The notes beneath the pieces are model-generated. The model worked only from the letters and a program-made list of their open reading frames with translations. It was not told where the DNA came from and ran no database searches. A stretch of 64,000 nucleotides of DNA, taken from Candidatus Nitrospira allomarina (lineage in GTDB: Bacteria; Nitrospirota; Nitrospiria; Nitrospirales; UBA8639). Where the stretch lies: positions 1,981,001-2,045,000 of the forward strand of contig NZ_CP116967.1 of the NCBI RefSeq assembly GCF_032050975.1, in the 5' to 3' direction. Numbering within the stretch: the stretch's first letter is position 1; each line of letters starts with the position of its first letter. Positions 7,933 through 54,865 of the stretch are shown piece by piece. The translations under genes and the position numbers were made by a program.

Positions 7933-9006
7933 ATGGATACGGGAATTCGATTAGCCTTAACGTTAAGCCAGATTGGCGTGGTGATGGTGGCGGTGCTTCT
8001 GACTGTCGCAGCACTCACCCTTCTGGAGCGAAAGGTGTTGGGTTGGATGCAGGATCGGATGGGGCCCATGGAAGTCGGGCCTTATGGCATCCTGCAACCG
8101 GTCGCCGACGGCTTAAAGCTCTTTTTTAAAGAAGACATCATCCCAGCCGGAGCGAATAAGTTCATGTTTAGCATGGCACCGGTGTTGTCATTAGTTCCTG
8201 CCCTCATCGGATTCGCGGTGATTCCGTTTGGCCCGGATTGGACGGTTGATGTCGGCGGCGTCAATTTTAAACCGTTTGTGATTACCGACATCAATATCGG
8301 TGTTCTCTATATCCTGGCGTTTGCTTCAATCGGTGCATACGGCATTATTTTGGGCGGGTGGTCATCAAACAGTAAGTATTCCCTTCTGGGAGGCCTGCGT
8401 TCTGCGGCCCAATTGATTAGTTATGAGTTGAATGTGGGGCTTTCAATTGTCGGTGTGTTGCTTCTTTCAAGCTCCTTAAGTCTCGTGACGATTACCAATG
8501 CGCAGGCAGGAGGATTTTGGAACTGGTACTTTTTCGGGGGAGGGGGATTCCCTCAAGCCCTGGCGTTCATCGTGTTTATAATTTCTGCAGTAGCGGAAAC
8601 GAATCGAACCCCGTTTGATTTGCCGGAAGCGGAAAGTGAGTTGGTGGCCGGATTCTTTACGGAATATAGCGGCATGCGATTCGCATTCTTCTTTCTGGCC
8701 GAATACGGCAATATGATTTTGGTGTCTTGCGTGGCCACTGTCTTGTTTTTTGGTGGCTGGCATCCTCCCTATCCAGGCACTCTTATGGAGTACATCGGGG
8801 TGGGCCATCTCCTCTGGATTGAGGGCATCATGTGGTTTGTCCTCAAAGTGGCGTTTTTTCTCTTTTTCTTTTTTTGGCTCCGGGCCACATTACCGCGATT
8901 ACGATATGACCAGCTTATGCGGTTCGGGTGGAAGGTTCTCCTTCCCATCGCGTTGGCTAATATTGTGGTGACGTCGATTGTTGCATTTCTTTTTCCTGGG
9001 AGCTAG
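7933..9006 (+). CDS. nuoH: NADH-quinone oxidoreductase subunit H
   Basis: Membrane subunit linking the quinone chamber to the pumping arm. The ATG at 7933 is chosen because AGGAG lies ten bases upstream; a GTG at 7897 in the same frame would add 12 residues without a good site. The 357-residue product has about eight to nine membrane helices. Family signatures include '[14 protein letters not shown]' near residue 32, the acidic quinone-site loop with '[14 protein letters not shown]' near 228, and '[15 protein letters not shown]' just after it. It sits between nuoG and nuoI as in most nuo operons. Confidence 0.97.
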
Positions 9007-18999: not shown

Positions 19000-20556
19000 A
19001 TGGCAAAATTGGGGAAGGCGCTGATCAGCGTATCCGATAAATCCGGTCTAGAGAAAATGGCCAAGGGGTTGGCGGCACTTGATGCGGATATTTTGTCAAC
19101 AGGTGGAACCGCCAAGATGCTCCGCGACGCCGGGGTTGCTGTGACCGAGGTGGCAGATTACACCGGGTTTCCGGAAATCTTGAACGGGCGGGTGAAAACG
19201 TTACATCCGAGGATTCATGGTGGGTTATTAGGGCGGCGTTCGGTGGATGCGCATGTGCGACAAATGCAAGAGCAGGGAATTGAGCCCATCGATGTCGTGA
19301 TCGTCAATCTTTACCCATTTGAAGCGACCATTGCGAAGCCTGGCTGTACGTTTGAAGAAGCCATTGAAAACATTGATATCGGGGGACCATCCATGCTCCG
19401 GTCGGCGGCAAAGAACCATGAGGATGTCCTGGTGGTGGTCGATCCTCAGGATTATGAGCGGGTCTTGGAGGCCTTGCAGTCGGGAACGGTCTCTTTAGGC
19501 TTGCGACGCGAATTAGCCAAAAAAGTCTTTGACCATACCGCCAGGTATGACAGCCTGATCGCCAATTATCTCACCTCCAAGTTAGCCGATACCTCAGAGC
19601 AAAAATTCCCCTCGTTGTTGTGTCTGTCGTATGAAAAGGTCGAAGATCTACGGTATGGAGAAAATCCGCATCAGGCCGGTGCGGTATACCGGGACCGGCA
19701 GACCAAAGAAGCCTCGCTTTGCCAGGCCAAACAACTTCATGGCAAAGCCATGTCCTATAATAATTACTTAGATGCGAATGCGGCATTGGAACTGGTAAAG
19801 GAGTTTGATGAAACGGCGGTCGTCATCGTCAAACACAATAATCCCTGCGGGGTCGCCATCGGGGATATGCCGGTGGAGGCCTATGTGCGGGCCCGAGAAA
19901 CGGATCCGGTCTCGGCCTTTGGCGGGGTCATTGCCTGTAATCGAGACGTCGATCTGGCCATGGCGAAAGAAATCACCTCCACGTTTGTGGAGGTATTGAT
20001 TGCGCCGGCATTTTCGGAAGAGGCCTTGGCTGAACTTCAACGGAAAAAAGATTTGAGGCTGTTAGCGGTGGGTGCGTTGGAAAGTGCACAACGGGATGCC
20101 TTGGATATGAAAAAAATTGTGGGCGGGATTTTGGTGCAAGACCGGGATTTGGGGTCGTTGCGTGAGATGGGAGATTTATCCATGCCGAGTGAACGGCAAC
20201 CGACCGACCACGAGTATCAAGCCTGCGATTTTGCCTGGAAAGTGTGCAAGCACGTCAAGTCCAATGCCATTGTCTTTGCCACGCAGATCCAAACCGTCGG
20301 CATTGGCGCCGGCCAAATGAGCCGGGTTGATTCGGTGAAATTGGCTCAAATGAAAGCGAATCTTCCCATCAAAGGGTGCGTGATGGCTTCCGATGCCTTT
20401 TTCCCGTTTCGTGATGGCATTGATGCCGCCGCAGGCGCAGGGATTACTGCGGTAATTCAGCCAGGAGGGTCTATTCGGGATAAGGAGATCATCCAAGCCG
20501 TTGATGAGCATAAGATGGCCATGATTATGACGGGCATGCGCCACTTCCGTCATTAA
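19000..20556 (+). CDS. purH: Bifunctional AICAR transformylase / IMP cyclohydrolase
   Basis: Catalyses the last two steps of IMP synthesis: formylation of AICAR with 10-formyl-tetrahydrofolate, then ring closure. The 518-residue product has the N-terminal MGS-like cyclohydrolase domain (about 1-195; 'SVSDKSG', 'STGGTA', 'NLYPFE', '[14 protein letters not shown]') and the C-terminal transformylase domain (about 200-518; 'RYGENPHQ', '[11 protein letters not shown]', '[12 protein letters not shown]'). The start has 'GCAGGAG' six to twelve bases upstream. purD follows 222 bases downstream. Confidence 0.97.
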
Positions 20557-20778: not shown

Positions 20779-22053
20779 GTGAACATATTAATCATAGGCA
20801 ATGGTGGCCGCGAGCATGCCCTCGCATGGAAGCTTGCCCAATCGCCACGTGTGGGAAAACTTTTTTGTGCCCCGGGCAATGCGGGGATCGCCCAGGTAGC
20901 CGAATGTGTGCCACTTCAGGTTGATGACCTTGAAGGGCTTAAGCACTTTGCCCAAACCCACGAGATCAACCTCACGGTGGTCGGACCCGAGCTGCCGCTC
21001 TCCCTCGGCATCGCCGACGAATTCCGAAAATCGCACTTACGGATTTTTGGCCCCACTCGCAATGCGGCTCTTATTGAATCCAGCAAATCGTTTGCCAAAG
21101 AACTCATGGTGCGGGAAAAAATTCCCACCCCTTCTTCCCGTACATTTGACCAACTGAAACCGGCTTTAACCTGGCTCGAATCCTGCCCGCTCCCGATCGT
21201 CGTCAAAGCCGATGGCCTGGCGCAAGGGAAGGGGGTCATCATTTGCCAAACCAGGGCGGACGCCCGTGAGGCGGTTCGCAGCATGCTGGAGGAGCAGCGA
21301 TTTGGAGTAGCCGGCGCCCGGGTCGTGCTGGAAGAATTTCTTGAGGGAGAGGAACTCACCGTTATGGCCTTTGCCGATGGCGGAACGGTCATCCCTATGA
21401 TCCCCGCCCAGGATCATAAGCGAATCGGTGAAGGGGACACGGGTCTGAATACTGGAGGGATGGGGGCCTATGCGCCGGCCCCATTGGGAACATCAGAACT
21501 CCGTCAGCGTATTCTTGACGAAGTCTTGTCTCCGGCGGTCACGGGGTTGTCCCGGGTGGGGAGTCCTTTTTATGGCGTGTTGTATGCGGGGATTATGGTG
21601 AAGGATGGCAAACCCTATGTATTGGAATTTAACGCCCGCTTTGGCGATCCCGAAACCCAGGTGGTCTTGCCACTCTTAAAAACAGATTTATTGGATGTGC
21701 TGGAAGCCGTGGTCGAACATCGTTTGGACCAACTGCAGGTGGAGTGGCACAATCAGGCAGCGGTGTGCGTGGTATTGACCTCCGGCGGATATCCCGAGTC
21801 CTATCAAACGGGATTGCCAATCACCGGCCTCCCGGAAAAAGAGTCGAAGTCGGTCATAGTGTTTCACGCCGGGACCTCCTATGCCAATGAAAAGATTGTC
21901 ACAAATGGCGGGAGGGTCCTAGGGGTAACCGGGATTGATTCGACCCTGGCCGGTGCCAGAGATCATGCTCATCAGGCACTCGCCCCGATTCAGTTTGAAG
22001 GCCGGTATTTCCGTTCCGACATCGGGCACCGCGTGCTGCAGGTTCCATCCTGA
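20779..22053 (+). CDS. purD: Phosphoribosylamine-glycine ligase
   Basis: Second step of purine synthesis, ATP-dependent joining of phosphoribosylamine and glycine. The 424-residue product starts with GTG at 20779, giving the family N-terminus 'MNILIIGNGGREHALAWKLA'. ATP-grasp signatures include 'TVVGPELPLSLGIADEF', 'VVKADGLAQGKGVI' near 142-155, and 'LEFNARFGDPETQVVLPL' near 281-298. Its length is typical. A Sua5/YrdC gene follows after 17 bases, so the two are probably cotranscribed. Confidence 0.97.
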   Translation: MNILIIGNGGREHALAWKLAQSPRVGKLFCAPGNAGIAQVAECVPLQVDDLEGLKHFAQTHEINLTVVGPELPLSLGIADEFRKSHLRIFGPTRNAALIESSKSFAKELMVREKIPTPSSRTFDQLKPALTWLESCPLPIVVKADGLAQGKGVIICQTRADAREAVRSMLEEQRFGVAGARVVLEEFLEGEELTVMAFADGGTVIPMIPAQDHKRIGEGDTGLNTGGMGAYAPAPLGTSELRQRILDEVLSPAVTGLSRVGSPFYGVLYAGIMVKDGKPYVLEFNARFGDPETQVVLPLLKTDLLDVLEAVVEHRLDQLQVEWHNQAAVCVVLTSGGYPESYQTGLPITGLPEKESKSVIVFHAGTSYANEKIVTNGGRVLGVTGIDSTLAGARDHAHQALAPIQFEGRYFRSDIGHRVLQVPS

Positions 22054-22070: not shown

Positions 22071-22718
22071 ATGGCCACCGTTCTCCCACTCAATTCCCCT
22101 CCATCGCCTCAACTGATTCATCAGGTTGCGCAATGTCTCCAGGATGGCGGAGTCCTAGCTGTGCCGACCGACAGCTTTTACGCGCTGTCGGTCAGTCCCT
22201 TCAATGAAATGGCATTAAAGCGGCTGATGGATATCAAAGGCGAACGCAGCCACAAACCCTTTCCGGTGTTAGTGGGTGACCTATCCCAACTGAATCAACT
22301 GACGGAAGCTATCCCCGATGTCGCTCGAACACTCATGGAAGAGTTCTGGCCAGGGTTGCTCACGTTGGTTTTCCAGGCTCGTTCAACTCTTTCGCCTATC
22401 CTGACGGGCGGGCAGGGAACCGTTGGCATCCGGCAGCCGAATGATCCACGAGTCTGCGAACTTATGACGCACATCGGTCCACTCACCGGCACTAGCTCCA
22501 ATCGAAGCGGGCAGCCGCCGGCGCAATCTGCGGGACATGTGAGGCAACAATTAGGGACAGTGGTTGATGTGATCGTCGATGGCGGACCTGCGCCGGGTGG
22601 TCAACCTTCCACTGTGTTGCAACTGGAACCGGAACTCTGCATCCTCAGAGATGGTGCAGTCACCCGAAAGCAAATTGAAGTGGTTCTTGGCCAACCGTCT
22701 TTATGGTTTCGTGAATAA
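22071..22718 (+). CDS. L-threonylcarbamoyladenylate synthase (Sua5/YciO/YrdC family)
   Basis: The 215-residue product is a single YrdC domain, with 'GGVLAVPTDSFYALSVSPFNE' near 31-51, the basic 'KGERSHKPFPVLV' motif and 'PLTGTSSNRSGQPPA' near 138-152. Members of the family make threonylcarbamoyl-AMP for the t6A modification of tRNAs reading ANN codons (TsaC/Sua5). The C-terminal Sua5 extension is absent, so it is TsaC-like; the related YciO group is not excluded. It lies 17 bases after purD. Confidence 0.88.
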   Translation: MATVLPLNSPPSPQLIHQVAQCLQDGGVLAVPTDSFYALSVSPFNEMALKRLMDIKGERSHKPFPVLVGDLSQLNQLTEAIPDVARTLMEEFWPGLLTLVFQARSTLSPILTGGQGTVGIRQPNDPRVCELMTHIGPLTGTSSNRSGQPPAQSAGHVRQQLGTVVDVIVDGGPAPGGQPSTVLQLEPELCILRDGAVTRKQIEVVLGQPSLWFRE

Positions 22719-22791: not shown

Positions 22792-23232
22792 ATGAAAACA
22801 GTGGGCTTCCTTGATTTTTTGATTTACAAATTTGCAGCAAACGAAGTTGAAATAACTCTGAACAAAGACGTTGTCATTTTCCGTTCCGGAGACGCAAGCT
22901 TACGGCTAGAACCTGTGGTATATCTGGCAGCCGACTCTAGGAATCCGCGAGTCCTTTCAATTGGTAAATCCACTGATCTCAGCGAACCTTTTGAACGCAT
23001 TGATCTCTTTGATGGTAAACGAATTGTAATTAAGGGTTTGGACAAAACGAATGCTTTAGAAATGTTTTTACATTTTGGCTTCACCCAATTAGCAGGGCGG
23101 CTGGCTTTAGTCCGACCTAAGGTGATATTTGTCCTTGGAAACCCATTATCGGAGATTTTCGGAGGATATGAGCGTGTTGTGCTCATGCAATCCGCGGAAA
23201 ATGCCGGGGCCCGAGAAGTTGTTTTTGGCTAA
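22792..23232 (+). CDS. Short MreB-like protein lacking the nucleotide-binding loop
   Basis: The 146-residue product ends with 'VRPKVIFVLGNPLS...VVLMQSAENAGAREVVFG', strongly like the MreB segment 'RPRVVICVP...RAVRESAEHAGAREV'. The N-terminal part ('FAANEVEITLNKDVVIF...LRLEPVVYLAAD') follows the MreB order of strand, loop and 'NEPSVVAI'-type strand. The phosphate-1 loop (normally 'DLGTANT') is replaced by 'EITLNKDV', and all of MreB after subdomain I is missing. It should therefore not bind ATP alone. ATG 22792 is only one base from AAGG; GTG 22801 has better spacing. It could be a decayed mreB or a regulator of the actin-like cytoskeleton. Confidence 0.55.
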   Translation: MKTVGFLDFLIYKFAANEVEITLNKDVVIFRSGDASLRLEPVVYLAADSRNPRVLSIGKSTDLSEPFERIDLFDGKRIVIKGLDKTNALEMFLHFGFTQLAGRLALVRPKVIFVLGNPLSEIFGGYERVVLMQSAENAGAREVVFG

Positions 23233-23292
23233 AATGGAACTATCTCAAACTAAATTAAGATATGAGAAGCCGGAAGGGATCTCAGTCACACG

Positions 23293-23360
23293 GATATTGG
23301 CTTAGCCGGATAGACTGCATAAGCCGGTGGGCTATACGGCCAATATCTCAATGGTTAGGC
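23293..23360 (+). other. attC-like site 0 (left end of the cassette cluster)
   Basis: GATATTGGC (23293-23301) pairs exactly with GCCAATATC (23339-23347); inside, TAGCC and GGCTA can extend the stem. A perfect core box GTTAGGC (23354-23360, consensus GTTRRRY) follows. No matching RYYYAAC box is seen on the left, so the left simple site is degenerate or was lost. Confidence 0.5.
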
Positions 23361-23377
23361 GTCAGTGAAACCGCCCC

Positions 23378-23651
23378 ATGCGTGGAATCGTAGTCGAGAT
23401 AAAACCAGCCAACGTCCTAATGCCCGGTATCGAGTTTATGCAGTATGGCAACCAACATCTCGATGCAGCCGAGTTCCTTTCGGCGAGAGATCCTGATGCC
23501 TGGTTTGATCTCCCTCACATATCACCTGCTCTGCCAAGCGCTCGGGCTAGGAGAAGCACCGGGTCCCATGCGGTGTGATGCAAATGGCAATTGGGAGGCA
23601 GATTGCGTTCGCTTGAGGTTCTTTGCCGCGAAACCAATCGTCGCAACCTAA
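23378..23651 (+). pseudogene. Frameshifted cassette gene of unknown function
   Basis: A frame starts at ATG 23378, 17 bases after the core box, and reads 'MRGIVVEIKPANVLMPGIEF...DAWFDLPHIS' before losing coding character and stopping at 23578. Another frame then continues with 'YHLLCQALGLGEAPGPMRCD...FFAAKPIVAT' and stops at TAA 23649-23651 inside the attC inverse-core box. Read together with one frame change near 23520 they give one protein of about 90 residues filling the cassette exactly. I do not recognise its family. A sequencing error could also explain the shift. Confidence 0.45.
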
Positions 23652-23707
23652 CATTCTGTTCGAGAGGGACGCGCCAAAAACGGCGCCCCCTCAACTTTAC
23701 ATTAGAC
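23646..23707 (+). other. attC site 1 (best-preserved)
   Basis: This 62-base site has a perfect inverse core ACCTAAC (23646-23652), a stem GAGGGACGCGCC (23664-23675) with GGCGCCCCCTC (23682-23692) containing an unpaired base, and a core ATTAGAC (23701-23707) with one mismatch to GTTRRRY. Size, order and bulge match integron attC sites. Confidence 0.7.
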
Positions 23708-23738
23708 CGCAGTCCTGATATTGGAGAATCCGTCGACT

Positions 23739-24350
23739 ATGTGCAAAGACGCCGTCATTGATCTATACGAGCGACATGCGCCGATCTATGATCGCGACCG
23801 CGGTCGATCCCTTCAGGAACGCATGTGGCTGGATCGGTTTCTGGTCAAGGTGCGTTCCGGAGGCACAGTTCTCGACCTGGGCTGCGGGATGGGCGAGCCA
23901 ATCGCACGATACCTAATCGATCGCGGGTTTCGCGTCGCTGGCATGGATACCTCGGCGTCTATGATCGCGCTTTGCCGCGCGCGCTTTCCCGACTCCGAGT
24001 GGCTTGTGGCTGACATGCGTCAGTTCGAGGTCGGCCGACGGTTCGAAGGCATCCTGGCATGGGACAGCTTTTTTCATTTGGGCATGGAGGATCAACGGAA
24101 GATGTTTCGACGCTTCGCCGAACATGCTCAACGAGGTGCACCGCTCATGTTCACGAGCGGTCCTGCGGAAGGTGAGGCGATCGGCACCTACCGCGAGGAA
24201 CCACTCTACCACGCGAGTCTCGGACCTGCGGAGTATGAGCAGCTGCTCGCGACCAACGGGTTCGTCGTGAGAGCGTACATGGCAGAAGATCCAGCATGCG
24301 GCAAGCACACCGTGTGGCTCGCAACCTATGATGTCGCACCCGCGGCCTAA
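23739..24350 (+). CDS. Class I SAM-dependent methyltransferase in a cassette
   Basis: From ATG 23739 the product is 203 residues; a TTG at 23721 would add six. Motif I is 'TVLDLGCGMGEPIARYL' near 42-58, followed by 'GMDTSASMIALCRARFP' and 'VADMRQFEVGRRFEGILAWDSFFHL', the standard Rossmann methyltransferase order. The substrate is unknown. The stop codon lies inside the attC box GCCTAAC, and base composition differs from the purD-side genes, both consistent with acquisition as an integron cassette. Expression would depend on read-through or a cassette promoter. Confidence 0.85.
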   Translation: MCKDAVIDLYERHAPIYDRDRGRSLQERMWLDRFLVKVRSGGTVLDLGCGMGEPIARYLIDRGFRVAGMDTSASMIALCRARFPDSEWLVADMRQFEVGRRFEGILAWDSFFHLGMEDQRKMFRRFAEHAQRGAPLMFTSGPAEGEAIGTYREEPLYHASLGPAEYEQLLATNGFVVRAYMAEDPACGKHTVWLATYDVAPAA

Positions 24351-24410
24351 CAAACCTGTGAAGCTGACCTGGCCCTCGCTCCCCTTGTCCAGGTGCTCCT
24401 CACGTTGCTC
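24345..24410 (+). other. attC-like site 2
   Basis: Perfect inverse core GCCTAAC (24345-24351), then GTGAAGCTGACCTGG (24358-24372) which imperfectly pairs with CCAGGTGCTCCTCAC (24389-24403), directly followed by GTTGCTC (24404-24410), a core box with two mismatches. The geometry fits attC; the weak core suggests decay. Confidence 0.5.
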
Positions 24411-24530
24411 GGAGACGGGTAGCTTACACTTCACACTTGCAAGCCCTCGCAGGTGGCGGACGGAGTGCTGAAGAGGTTGAAGGGGACGTGGCTGCTCGAT
24501 GGGGGATTAGGGGGAATTGATGATCTGGCG

Positions 24531-24641
24531 GCTGAACAGAGTTCGCGCCTAGGACTGTTTGTCCGCCGTCTGCAGCAGCCGAACGTGCGGCTCGAATCGA
24601 CGGGCCTCCTGCCCACCATTCAGCCGCAGACTCTGTTGAGC
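24531..24641 (+). other. attC-like site 3 upstream of the VOC gene
   Basis: GCTGAACAGAGT (24531-24542) and ACTCTGTTGAGC (24630-24641) are inverted copies with a single mismatch. The right arm contains a perfect GTTGAGC core (24635-24641), and the left a one-mismatch inverse core. At 111 bases it falls within the known size range of attC sites. The 120 bases between site 2 and this site contain no convincing gene. Confidence 0.45.
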
Positions 24642-24664
24642 TATCACCGGATTTGACACCGCCA

Positions 24665-25027
24665 ATGAAGATTGTTGAATTTGCTTTTATTGTATATCCG
24701 GCCACGGATCTGGCGCGGTCCCGTGCCTTTTATGAGGGCGTTCTCGGGCTCACTAGCGCGACTTCCATGGATCTGGCAGACGGATTCTGGGTCGAATATG
24801 AGATCGGTCCTCACACGCTGGCCATCGGCAAAGAACCATTCCTGAAGCCATCGGGCGACGGTCCTCAGCTTGTGCTGGAAGTGGACGATTTCGACAAGAC
24901 GATAGAACACCTCAGGCATTATGACGTGCACTTCGCCCTTGAGCCTTTTGACCTCCCTCACTGCCGGGCAGCGATTATCCTGGACCCCGACGGGAACAAG
25001 CTTGGCATACATAAACGAAAGGCCTAA
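24665..25027 (+). CDS. VOC-superfamily (glyoxalase/bleomycin-resistance-like) protein
   Basis: From ATG 24665 the product is 120 residues, a single vicinal-oxygen-chelate domain: 'FIVYPATDLARSRAFYEGVLGL' at the start, 'DGPQLVLEVDDFDKTIEHLR' in the middle and 'AIILDPDGNKLGIHK' at the end. VOC proteins include glyoxalase I, dioxygenases and resistance proteins that bind fosfomycin or bleomycin; the sequence does not choose among them. Its stop codon lies in GCCTAAC, marking it as a cassette gene like its neighbour. Such proteins are frequent cargo of integrons. Confidence 0.85.
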   Translation: MKIVEFAFIVYPATDLARSRAFYEGVLGLTSATSMDLADGFWVEYEIGPHTLAIGKEPFLKPSGDGPQLVLEVDDFDKTIEHLRHYDVHFALEPFDLPHCRAAIILDPDGNKLGIHKRKA

Positions 25028-25039
25028 CAGCTGATAGGC
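25022..25039 (+). other. Internally deleted attC remnant
   Basis: GCCTAAC (25022-25028) is followed after four bases by GATAGGC (25033-25039), a one-mismatch core box. The two outer boxes of an attC seem to be joined with the central stem removed. It marks the right end of the cassette cluster. Confidence 0.4.
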
Positions 25040-25087
25040 CCATGTTTTTAGGAGTCTTCTGGAATTGGAGTTATGGAAAATAGAAAT

Positions 25088-25951
25088 TCAAATTTTGGAT
25101 GTGGCTGCCATCCTGCGGGCTTTTTGGAGCGAGAGCAAAGGCGTTTCGAGAGCCTGTTTGGCTCGAGAGGAGTCCATGGTGAGATCCATGGGGCGGATCA
25201 GTCCTGATTCCTCGATGGTTCCCATTTGAATATTCGATGTCTCCGCGATCCCAAAGTGCTGGAGCAATCCCATACCCAAGTCCCACCGGTTCAGGCTTTC
25301 AGGGCCCCCGAGATGTACGATTCCTGGCACATCTTTGGTGGCGACTTCCAGTAATACTTCGGCAAGATTTTCCACCCAGATAGGGCAACGACGTTCATCT
25401 ATGAACAAGCGGTACTGTTCGCCGGCTTTTGTGGACTCGATTAAGCGTGTCGTCTGGCGGTCCGGCGTGCGCAGATCATAGAGCAATGAGGTGCGGACGA
25501 TGGTGGCCTTCGGATTCAGGGAGCGGATGAGTTCTTCCGCCTGGGCTTTGGCCTTACCGTAGGGGTTGATGGGGTTCGTGGGGCTCTCTTCGGTATAGGG
25601 CGCCGAAGTCCCATCAAAGACTTGATCGGTCGAGAGGTGAATGAAGCGAATGTTTCGCTCTACTGATTGCATGGCGAGGAGTCCTGCTGCAGGGAGGATC
25701 GCATCAATTCCTTTTCCCTGCTCCGAGCAGGCGGTGTGAATCATGACGTCTGGTTGCACCCGATCCATGAGGACTCGAACTTCCTCAGGGCTTTGGAGAT
25801 CACACACATGAAAGGTTACGCCGGGAAGGGATGTGGAGGGCGTAACGTGCAGCGTTCCGGCTGCGACAAATTGATTGGCCCGACGTAGGAGGTGATTTCC
25901 TAAAAAGCCCGCTCCGCCGGTGACGAGGAGACGTGTTTTCATCGCCCGCAT
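25088..25951 (-). CDS. RmlD-like sugar-nucleotide reductase / SDR family protein
   Basis: The 287-residue product is an extended short-chain dehydrogenase of the dTDP-4-dehydrorhamnose reductase (RmlD) type. It has the NAD(P) loop 'LLVTGGAGFLGNHLL' near 8-22, 'FIHLSTDQVFDG' near 103-114, and the catalytic Y-x3-K in 'NPYGKAKAQAEE' near 128-139. The substrate is not fixed by the sequence: RmlD-like proteins also include methionine adenosyltransferase regulatory subunits and other nucleotide-sugar enzymes. No rml neighbours are present. ATG at 25942 ('MKTRLLVTGG') is an equally good start. Confidence 0.8.
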   Translation of the reverse strand: MRAMKTRLLVTGGAGFLGNHLLRRANQFVAAGTLHVTPSTSLPGVTFHVCDLQSPEEVRVLMDRVQPDVMIHTACSEQGKGIDAILPAAGLLAMQSVERNIRFIHLSTDQVFDGTSAPYTEESPTNPINPYGKAKAQAEELIRSLNPKATIVRTSLLYDLRTPDRQTTRLIESTKAGEQYRLFIDERRCPIWVENLAEVLLEVATKDVPGIVHLGGPESLNRWDLGMGLLQHFGIAETSNIQMGTIEESGLIRPMDLTMDSSRAKQALETPLLSLQKARRMAATSKI

Positions 25952-54700: not shown

Positions 54701-54783
54701 CCTGAAAAAAAGCAAACCATCTGAAAGGGTGGGACGCAAAGCTATGGGCCTACGTCTCGGAGTTTGAGATAGGGTTGCCAGGT
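54701..54783 (+). promoter_or_regulatory. Cyclic-di-GMP-I (GEMM-I) riboswitch
   Basis: The GEMM-I consensus is plain: 'GCAAACCATCTGAAAGGGTG' (54711-54730) runs into 'GGGACGCAAAGC' and 'GGGCCTACG', and ends 'AGGGTTGCCAGG'. The P1 arms CCTG (54701-54704) and CAGG (54779-54782) pair. The GNRA-type loop and its receptor segment are present. GEMM-I RNAs bind cyclic di-GMP and control expression at transcription or translation. It lies 82 bases upstream of the start of the fibronectin-III protein gene, whose ribosome site (AAGGAG) is a likely target; a stem GAGCG...CGCTC (54815-54833 region) lies between them. Confidence 0.85.
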
Positions 54784-54865
54784 TGCCAGGCAAGCCACAG
54801 AGTCTCCTTGACATGAGCGGAGTGGCTTCGCTCGGCATGATTCACATGCATAAAGGAGATCTCGT

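Follow-up and report, generated by a model that had tools for sequence, protein, structure and literature searches.

The window analyzed here, i.e., the whole stretch of 64,000 nucleotides from the closed 4.55-Mb genome of Candidatus Nitrospira allomarina (G000), contains an integron array without an integrase gene on the + strand at 23256–25040, between purH-purD-sua5 and rfbD-threonine aldolase (Table 1). This array is very probably the relic of a reverse-type chromosomal integron, from which intI was deleted and in which attI and the cassettes were retained. Integron integrases insert circular cassettes at attI and can also cut them out again; the exchange takes place at G/TT (the slash marks the exchange point), between attI and a folded attC site. 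The first-pass annotation of this DNA had described a CALIN-like cluster, and an integrase-less cassette array with no integron integrase near its attC sites is indeed present. However, the region is more than an attC cluster, as the attI was kept.

Table 1. Position and main properties of the array, its cassettes and the flanking genes (window coordinates).
Feature	Position	Strand	Properties
purH	19000–20556		left flank, before purD
purD	20779–22053		left flank, before sua5
Sua5/YrdC gene	22071–22718	+	left syntenic flank; PF01300, E = 9.4e-51; purH-purD-sua5 order also in relatives
146-codon ORF	22792–23232	+	chromosomal flank gene; no Pfam/NCBIfam match
attI relic (by homology)	23256–23360	+	core GTTAGGC 23354–23360; exchange point G/TT after 23354
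Cassette 1	23355–23701	+	68-codon ORF 23445–23651, stop within ACCTAAC, plus attC
attC of cassette 1	23646–23707	+	R'' ACCTAAC; L''/L' GTTCGAG/CTCAAC with one extra base; R' ATTAGAC
Cassette 2	23702–24439	+	class I SAM-dependent methyltransferase 23739–24350 plus attC; PF13649, E = 1.6e-13
attC of cassette 2	24345–24445	+	R'' GCCTAAC 24345–24351; R' decayed, GCAAGCC 24439–24445; by-eye comparison
Cassette 3, gene-less mini-cassette	24440–24635	+	196 bp; profile without window, E = 2.8e-47
attC of mini-cassette	24531–24641	+	R'' GCTGAAC; R' GTTGAGC; core intact
Cassette 4	24636–25040	+	VOC/glyoxalase-fold protein 24665–25027; PF00903, E = 3.6e-12
Terminator-like hairpin	25021–25041	both	formed by R'' stub; the VOC and rfbD genes converge on it
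rfbD-like NAD(P)-dependent reductase	25088–25951	-	right syntenic flank; PF04321, E = 5e-38

Locus and Flanking Genes

The gene order at the site is conserved across the genus: purH-purD-sua5, a variable stretch, and rfbD-threonine aldolase-86-codon ORF-comM. The variable stretch measures 93 bp in G005, which represents the empty site, 2.4 kb in the window, and 4.4 kb in G011. The first-pass annotation had pointed to the absence of the cassettes from close relatives, and in those checked at the same site they were absent or different. Many of the relatives are fragmented MAGs whose contigs end within arrays. The 146-codon ORF at 22792 was considered as a first cassette and ruled out, since it adjoins sua5 in G017, G018, and G019 with other DNA following it. 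In G015 (G015:C7:349979-469516), about 120 kb lie between sua5 with the array and rfbD, which indicates a large insertion or rearrangement at the site; Ku- and LigD-like genes were found by eye among its contents. This stretch is not a superintegron, as a 5-kb array is followed by ordinary chromosomal genes. An Rfam scan of the window returned only a c-di-GMP-I riboswitch (54701–54790, 73.4 bits) and one tRNA, neither of which bears on the array.

The attI Relic and the Loss of intI

Judged from its homologues, the left element of the array is an attI relic. The window itself carries no intI tail, so the identity of the element as attI depends on homology. A profile built from relatives, with the window excluded, matched the window element with E = 3.6e-19, and a profile from the two intI-adjacent copies alone (G022 and G028) found it as the sole match in the window (E = 0.0098). 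In the opposite direction, a left-element profile built on seven genomes, one of them that of the window, matched G022, a member of another genus, with E = 6.7e-16. The G022 copy lies about 150 bp 3' of an intI pseudogene, and G028, of another genus in the same family, has an A-type attI copy after an intI remnant. The element thus takes the place of attI at the proximal end of the array, as in a complete integron, by homology with the intI-adjacent copies, and intI itself is gone.

The first-pass annotation had taken the palindrome at 23293–23359 for an attC, but this palindrome belongs to attI. RNAalifold on the alignment of the attI element gave 0 consensus pairs and no conserved hairpin, in contrast to 24 pairs for the alignment of the mini-cassette attC, and the 9-bp inverted repeat of the left element is private to its own genome. 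The interpretation of this element as an attC was therefore ruled out by the lack of a conserved hairpin and by homologues directly behind intI 3' ends.

As the first-pass annotation had noted, there is no intI nearby. Elsewhere in the own genome, no gene exceeded the cut-off of the IntI profile (TIGR02249); the best match (83 bits vs. 265) was XerC, and the tyrosine recombinases of this genome comprise XerC, XerD, and small fragments. At the same cut-off, an intact intI was identified in none of the 21 genomes of the genus and in two of 49 genomes of the family; further tyrosine recombinases are present in the genus. C-terminal intI remnants occur in G018, G019, G006, G016, and G012. Close relatives retain only the last approximately 19 intI codons 5' of the same attI, with the junction in common: the DNA just 5' of attI aligns with the intI tail of G022 in G011, G015, G020, G003, and G017 (VRSPANGLIIPSDAESRKD-stop in G011 vs. 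VPSPADGLIIPPDAESRID-stop in G022). The DNA farther upstream is also alike in G011, G015, G020, and G003, and most weakly so in G017. The shared tail and the similar upstream DNA indicate that intI had already been lost in a common ancestor. In a purH+purD tree of little resolution, the attI carriers did not form one clade.

In G027 and G025, where intI is intact or nearly so, intI, attI, and the cassettes lie on one strand. This same-strand arrangement of a reverse integron was found in the family relatives G027, G025, G028, and G022, and the window shows attI and cassettes only.

A second attI-like sequence, GCGGATCCGNCTAANNATT/GTT (type 2), was present in 18 of the 21 genomes of the genus, where the reversed pattern had no match, and it sits after several of the C-terminal intI remnants. 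Two attI sites occur in tandem in one array of G020 (L047, 8219–8323 and 3572–3676), and two intI-attI modules in one array of G027 (L164, 839–1783 and 6381–6731). Movement of intI-attI modules as cassettes was considered and set aside, because no attC was seen 5' of the near-intact intI of L165, the only one that allowed a check. A repeat of about 300 bp, with a translation including SVLPGFAPAGE, was observed in L041 (about 8480–8910) and other loci; several relatives have it 5' of attI, and it recurs at other places in arrays.

Cassettes and Their attC Sites

The boxes GTTAGGC at 23354, ACCTAAC at 23646, and GCCTAAC at 24345 and 25022 all lie where the first-pass annotation had put them, and the stops of the 68-codon ORF, the methyltransferase, and the VOC gene fall inside the latter three, respectively. 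Its two cargo proteins, the methyltransferase and the VOC protein, were likewise recovered in cassettes. It had counted at least two cassettes and a broken one. The VOC unit is indeed broken, with its attC cut off, but the array holds four cassettes, and the gene-less unit at 24440–24635 had been missed. The units are bounded by G/TT at 23354, 23701, 24439, and 24635 and carry a 3' attC.

No relatives of the 68-codon ORF of cassette 1 were found in any fetched locus. Its attC folds with a z of -2.8, had no match by blast against plasmids, and shows a core change from G to A in the R' box ATTAGAC at 23701. The methyltransferase of cassette 2 has no counterpart above 35% identity in 97 relatives; its best outside match (73%) is in a gammaproteobacterial MAG, and its G+C content is somewhat above that of the surroundings. 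The attC of cassette 2 was detected by neither attC model, and the matching site in L042 has the R' box GTTCAGC where the window has GCAAGCC. The attC of the VOC cassette is cut off past R'' GCCTAAC (25022–25028). This last box is only an R'' stub within a terminator-like hairpin, which is a consensus match only (5 found vs. 2.9 expected in the region). The identical truncated end occurs in G011 and G013, and other continuations in G003 and G015. Since mutations affect two of the four R' cores (ATTAGAC at 23701, GCAAGCC at 24439) and one attC is cut off, the four cassettes of the window are probably no longer freely exchangeable.

An interpretation of all the sequence between the 24345 box and the VOC gene as the end of a single broken cassette was given up in favor of the mini-cassette. 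The latter is a repeat that occurs in many array loci across the genus as well as in two other genera; its copies begin at G/TT after unrelated attCs and end at G/TT before unrelated genes. With the class 1 attC model described below, in whose training none of these sequences had a part, attCs directly adjoining the mini-cassette were called at L055:9683-9741 (E = 9e-6) and at L044:10860-10921 (E = 0.014). Its own attC was matched by a profile of the G025 and G028 copies alone, which belong to other genera (E = 1.6e-10), and scored 118.9 bits with the family model R1, in which the window copy is included. The left end of the mini-cassette is complementary to its own R'' over about 14 bases, and the two covary in three genera (CAGC/GCTG, CGCC/GGCG, CTCC/GGAG), as would follow from the two halves coming together once the cassette is excised as a circle. 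GTT is absent from the attC in nine of 34 genus copies vs. none of 11 in the two other genera (p = 0.09), which hints at decay in the genus. In G019 (L050, 2018–2848), the product of a cassette adjoining mini-cassettes has a TIR domain and may act in defence.

Detection by Motifs and by Homology

Box motifs and hairpins alone do not exceed chance. In a box-plus-palindrome scan, the region was not outstanding and other places in the window ranked as high, and the hairpin energy of single sites was dropped as a criterion because too many equal scores occurred elsewhere. A covariance model trained on nine attC sites from plasmid-borne class 1 integrons (the class 1 attC model) scored the site at 23646 at 13.9 bits (E = 0.41), which ranked second in the window, and found no significant site there. 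Running an attC model over the window, as the first-pass annotation had proposed, would thus be a weak test. Homology settles the distinction of the array from chance: the background of the profiles, i.e., their other matches in the window, stayed at E >0.6 for attI and the mini-cassette and >9 for the mini-cassette attC.

The same evidence bears on the simplest alternative, in which there is no integron and boxes and hairpins surround ordinary genes by chance. In its favor, neither the palindrome scan nor the known-attC model singles out the region. On the other hand, it is refuted by the profiles of relatives, which match at 1e-10 to 1e-47, and by the unrelated genes that flank the repeats, so that its probability is close to nil.

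Origin of the Array

Very probably, the ancestral element was inserted between sua5 and rfbD, in the order intI, attI, cassettes on one strand. The intI gene was then deleted in an ancestor of this species group, and attI and the cassettes stayed. A later cassette exchange at attI may have been made by an integrase in trans, e.g., from a transient plasmid or another element. The array could instead be a plain CALIN, in which an integrase encoded elsewhere brought the cassettes into the sua5-rfbD gap at a secondary, attG-like site, intI was never present here, and the left element is the attC of one cassette. Cassettes can integrate at non-classical attG sites, according to Loot 2024 as cited in PMC11389934, and other dispersed attC sites exist in the own genome. 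However, the left element always comes first, lacks a hairpin, and follows intI remnants in G022 and G028, and an intI tail lies 5' of the same element in relatives. The intI tail in particular largely refutes the plain CALIN, which we consider improbable.

The own genome has a second integrase-less array on the - strand (L203, G000:C1:224000-231000), with an attC (class 1 model, E = 2e-5), a partial mini-cassette, and three attI-like type 2 sites, in the vicinity of genes resembling HicAB, HNH, and GNAT proteins. Two single attCs were located far from arrays, one at G000:C1:4164374-4164420 (L204, 40 bits, class 1 model) and one at G000:C1:2332966 (L090, 52.8 bits, family model).

Probable Cassette Turnover After the Loss of intI

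The first cassette after this attI differs in seven of seven genomes (G000, G003, G011, G015, G017, G019, and G020, the last taken from the printed sequence only), and no homologues of these first cassettes were found among the other fetched loci. Among the fetched loci, no fewer than eleven distinct cassettes were counted, and no two genomes have any of them in common. G000 and G019 have a later left deletion in common and differ in the first cassette. The empty site of G005 likewise speaks for turnover.

With regard to the relic of a reverse-type integron, we slightly favor the reading that cassettes still arrived after the loss of intI, which needs an integrase in trans. As there is no intI in the genus, integrase events after the loss would need such a supply, and the changes would then be integrase-made and in trans. 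An integrase acting in trans has been proposed for CALINs (PMC11389934). A less probable but serious alternative, which concerns the turnover step only and not the reading as an integron relic, is that the array has been inert since the loss of intI and that the lineages kept different parts of one long ancestral array by ordinary deletions. It requires no enzyme, deletions are visible at the junctions, several lineages have the distal VOC cassette in common, and some cores decay, as in the mini-cassette attCs; unequal deletion of a long ancestral array could also give different first cassettes. The number of non-overlapping cassettes among the fetched loci argues against it, as do the different first cassettes of G000 and G019 despite their common deletion and the methyltransferase, found in none of the 97 relatives and of a G+C content somewhat above that of the DNA around it.

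More speculatively, and with the odds against it, attI sites without intI may keep receiving cassettes throughout the genus via integrases supplied in trans, and the mini-cassette may travel as a hitchhiker, with attC recombination as its sole means of spread. It would mean that the gene-less mini-cassette is the integron counterpart of a MITE.

Comparison with Known Systems

An integrase-less integron array is a known kind of element; the retained attI, the mini-cassette family, and the turnover are new here. The literature searched contained no description of attI relics, nor of a comparable gene-less cassette occurring in several genera. Whether integrase-less arrays are dead or still exchanging by means of foreign integrases has mostly been asserted rather than tested. 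Here, a single attI with a placeable intI deletion is followed by a first cassette that is not the same in any two of seven species, which allows exchange to be tested directly by strain comparison. Moreover, attI relics can be recognized via the intI tail, reverse integrons are not confined to Treponema, and a gene-less cassette can be multi-copy across genera.

Gene-less cassettes are known from Vibrio superintegrons and Treponema integrons (PMC11014356, PMC6557892). The mini-cassette resembles them in having no gene and its own attC, but it forms one family of about 190 bp, with many copies behind unrelated cassettes in several genomes of three genera. For Candidatus Nitrospira inopinata, two CALINs found with IntegronFinder 2 have been reported (PMC9024848). 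The array shares with CALINs its chromosomal cassettes without intI and differs from them in the retained attI; its attCs were scored by our own models. Reverse, i.e., same-strand, chromosomal integrons have been described in Treponema denticola and relatives (PMC3607928, PMC4909258), and Treponema phagedenis kept its attC sites and lost intI (PMC3607928). As in the Treponema reverse integron, transcription of intI points to attI and the cassettes beyond it (observed here for G027 and G025). The array described here differs from the Treponema integrons in belonging to another bacterial family and in that the attI and the intI tail of relatives are still recognizable, so that the loss can be placed by the common junction.
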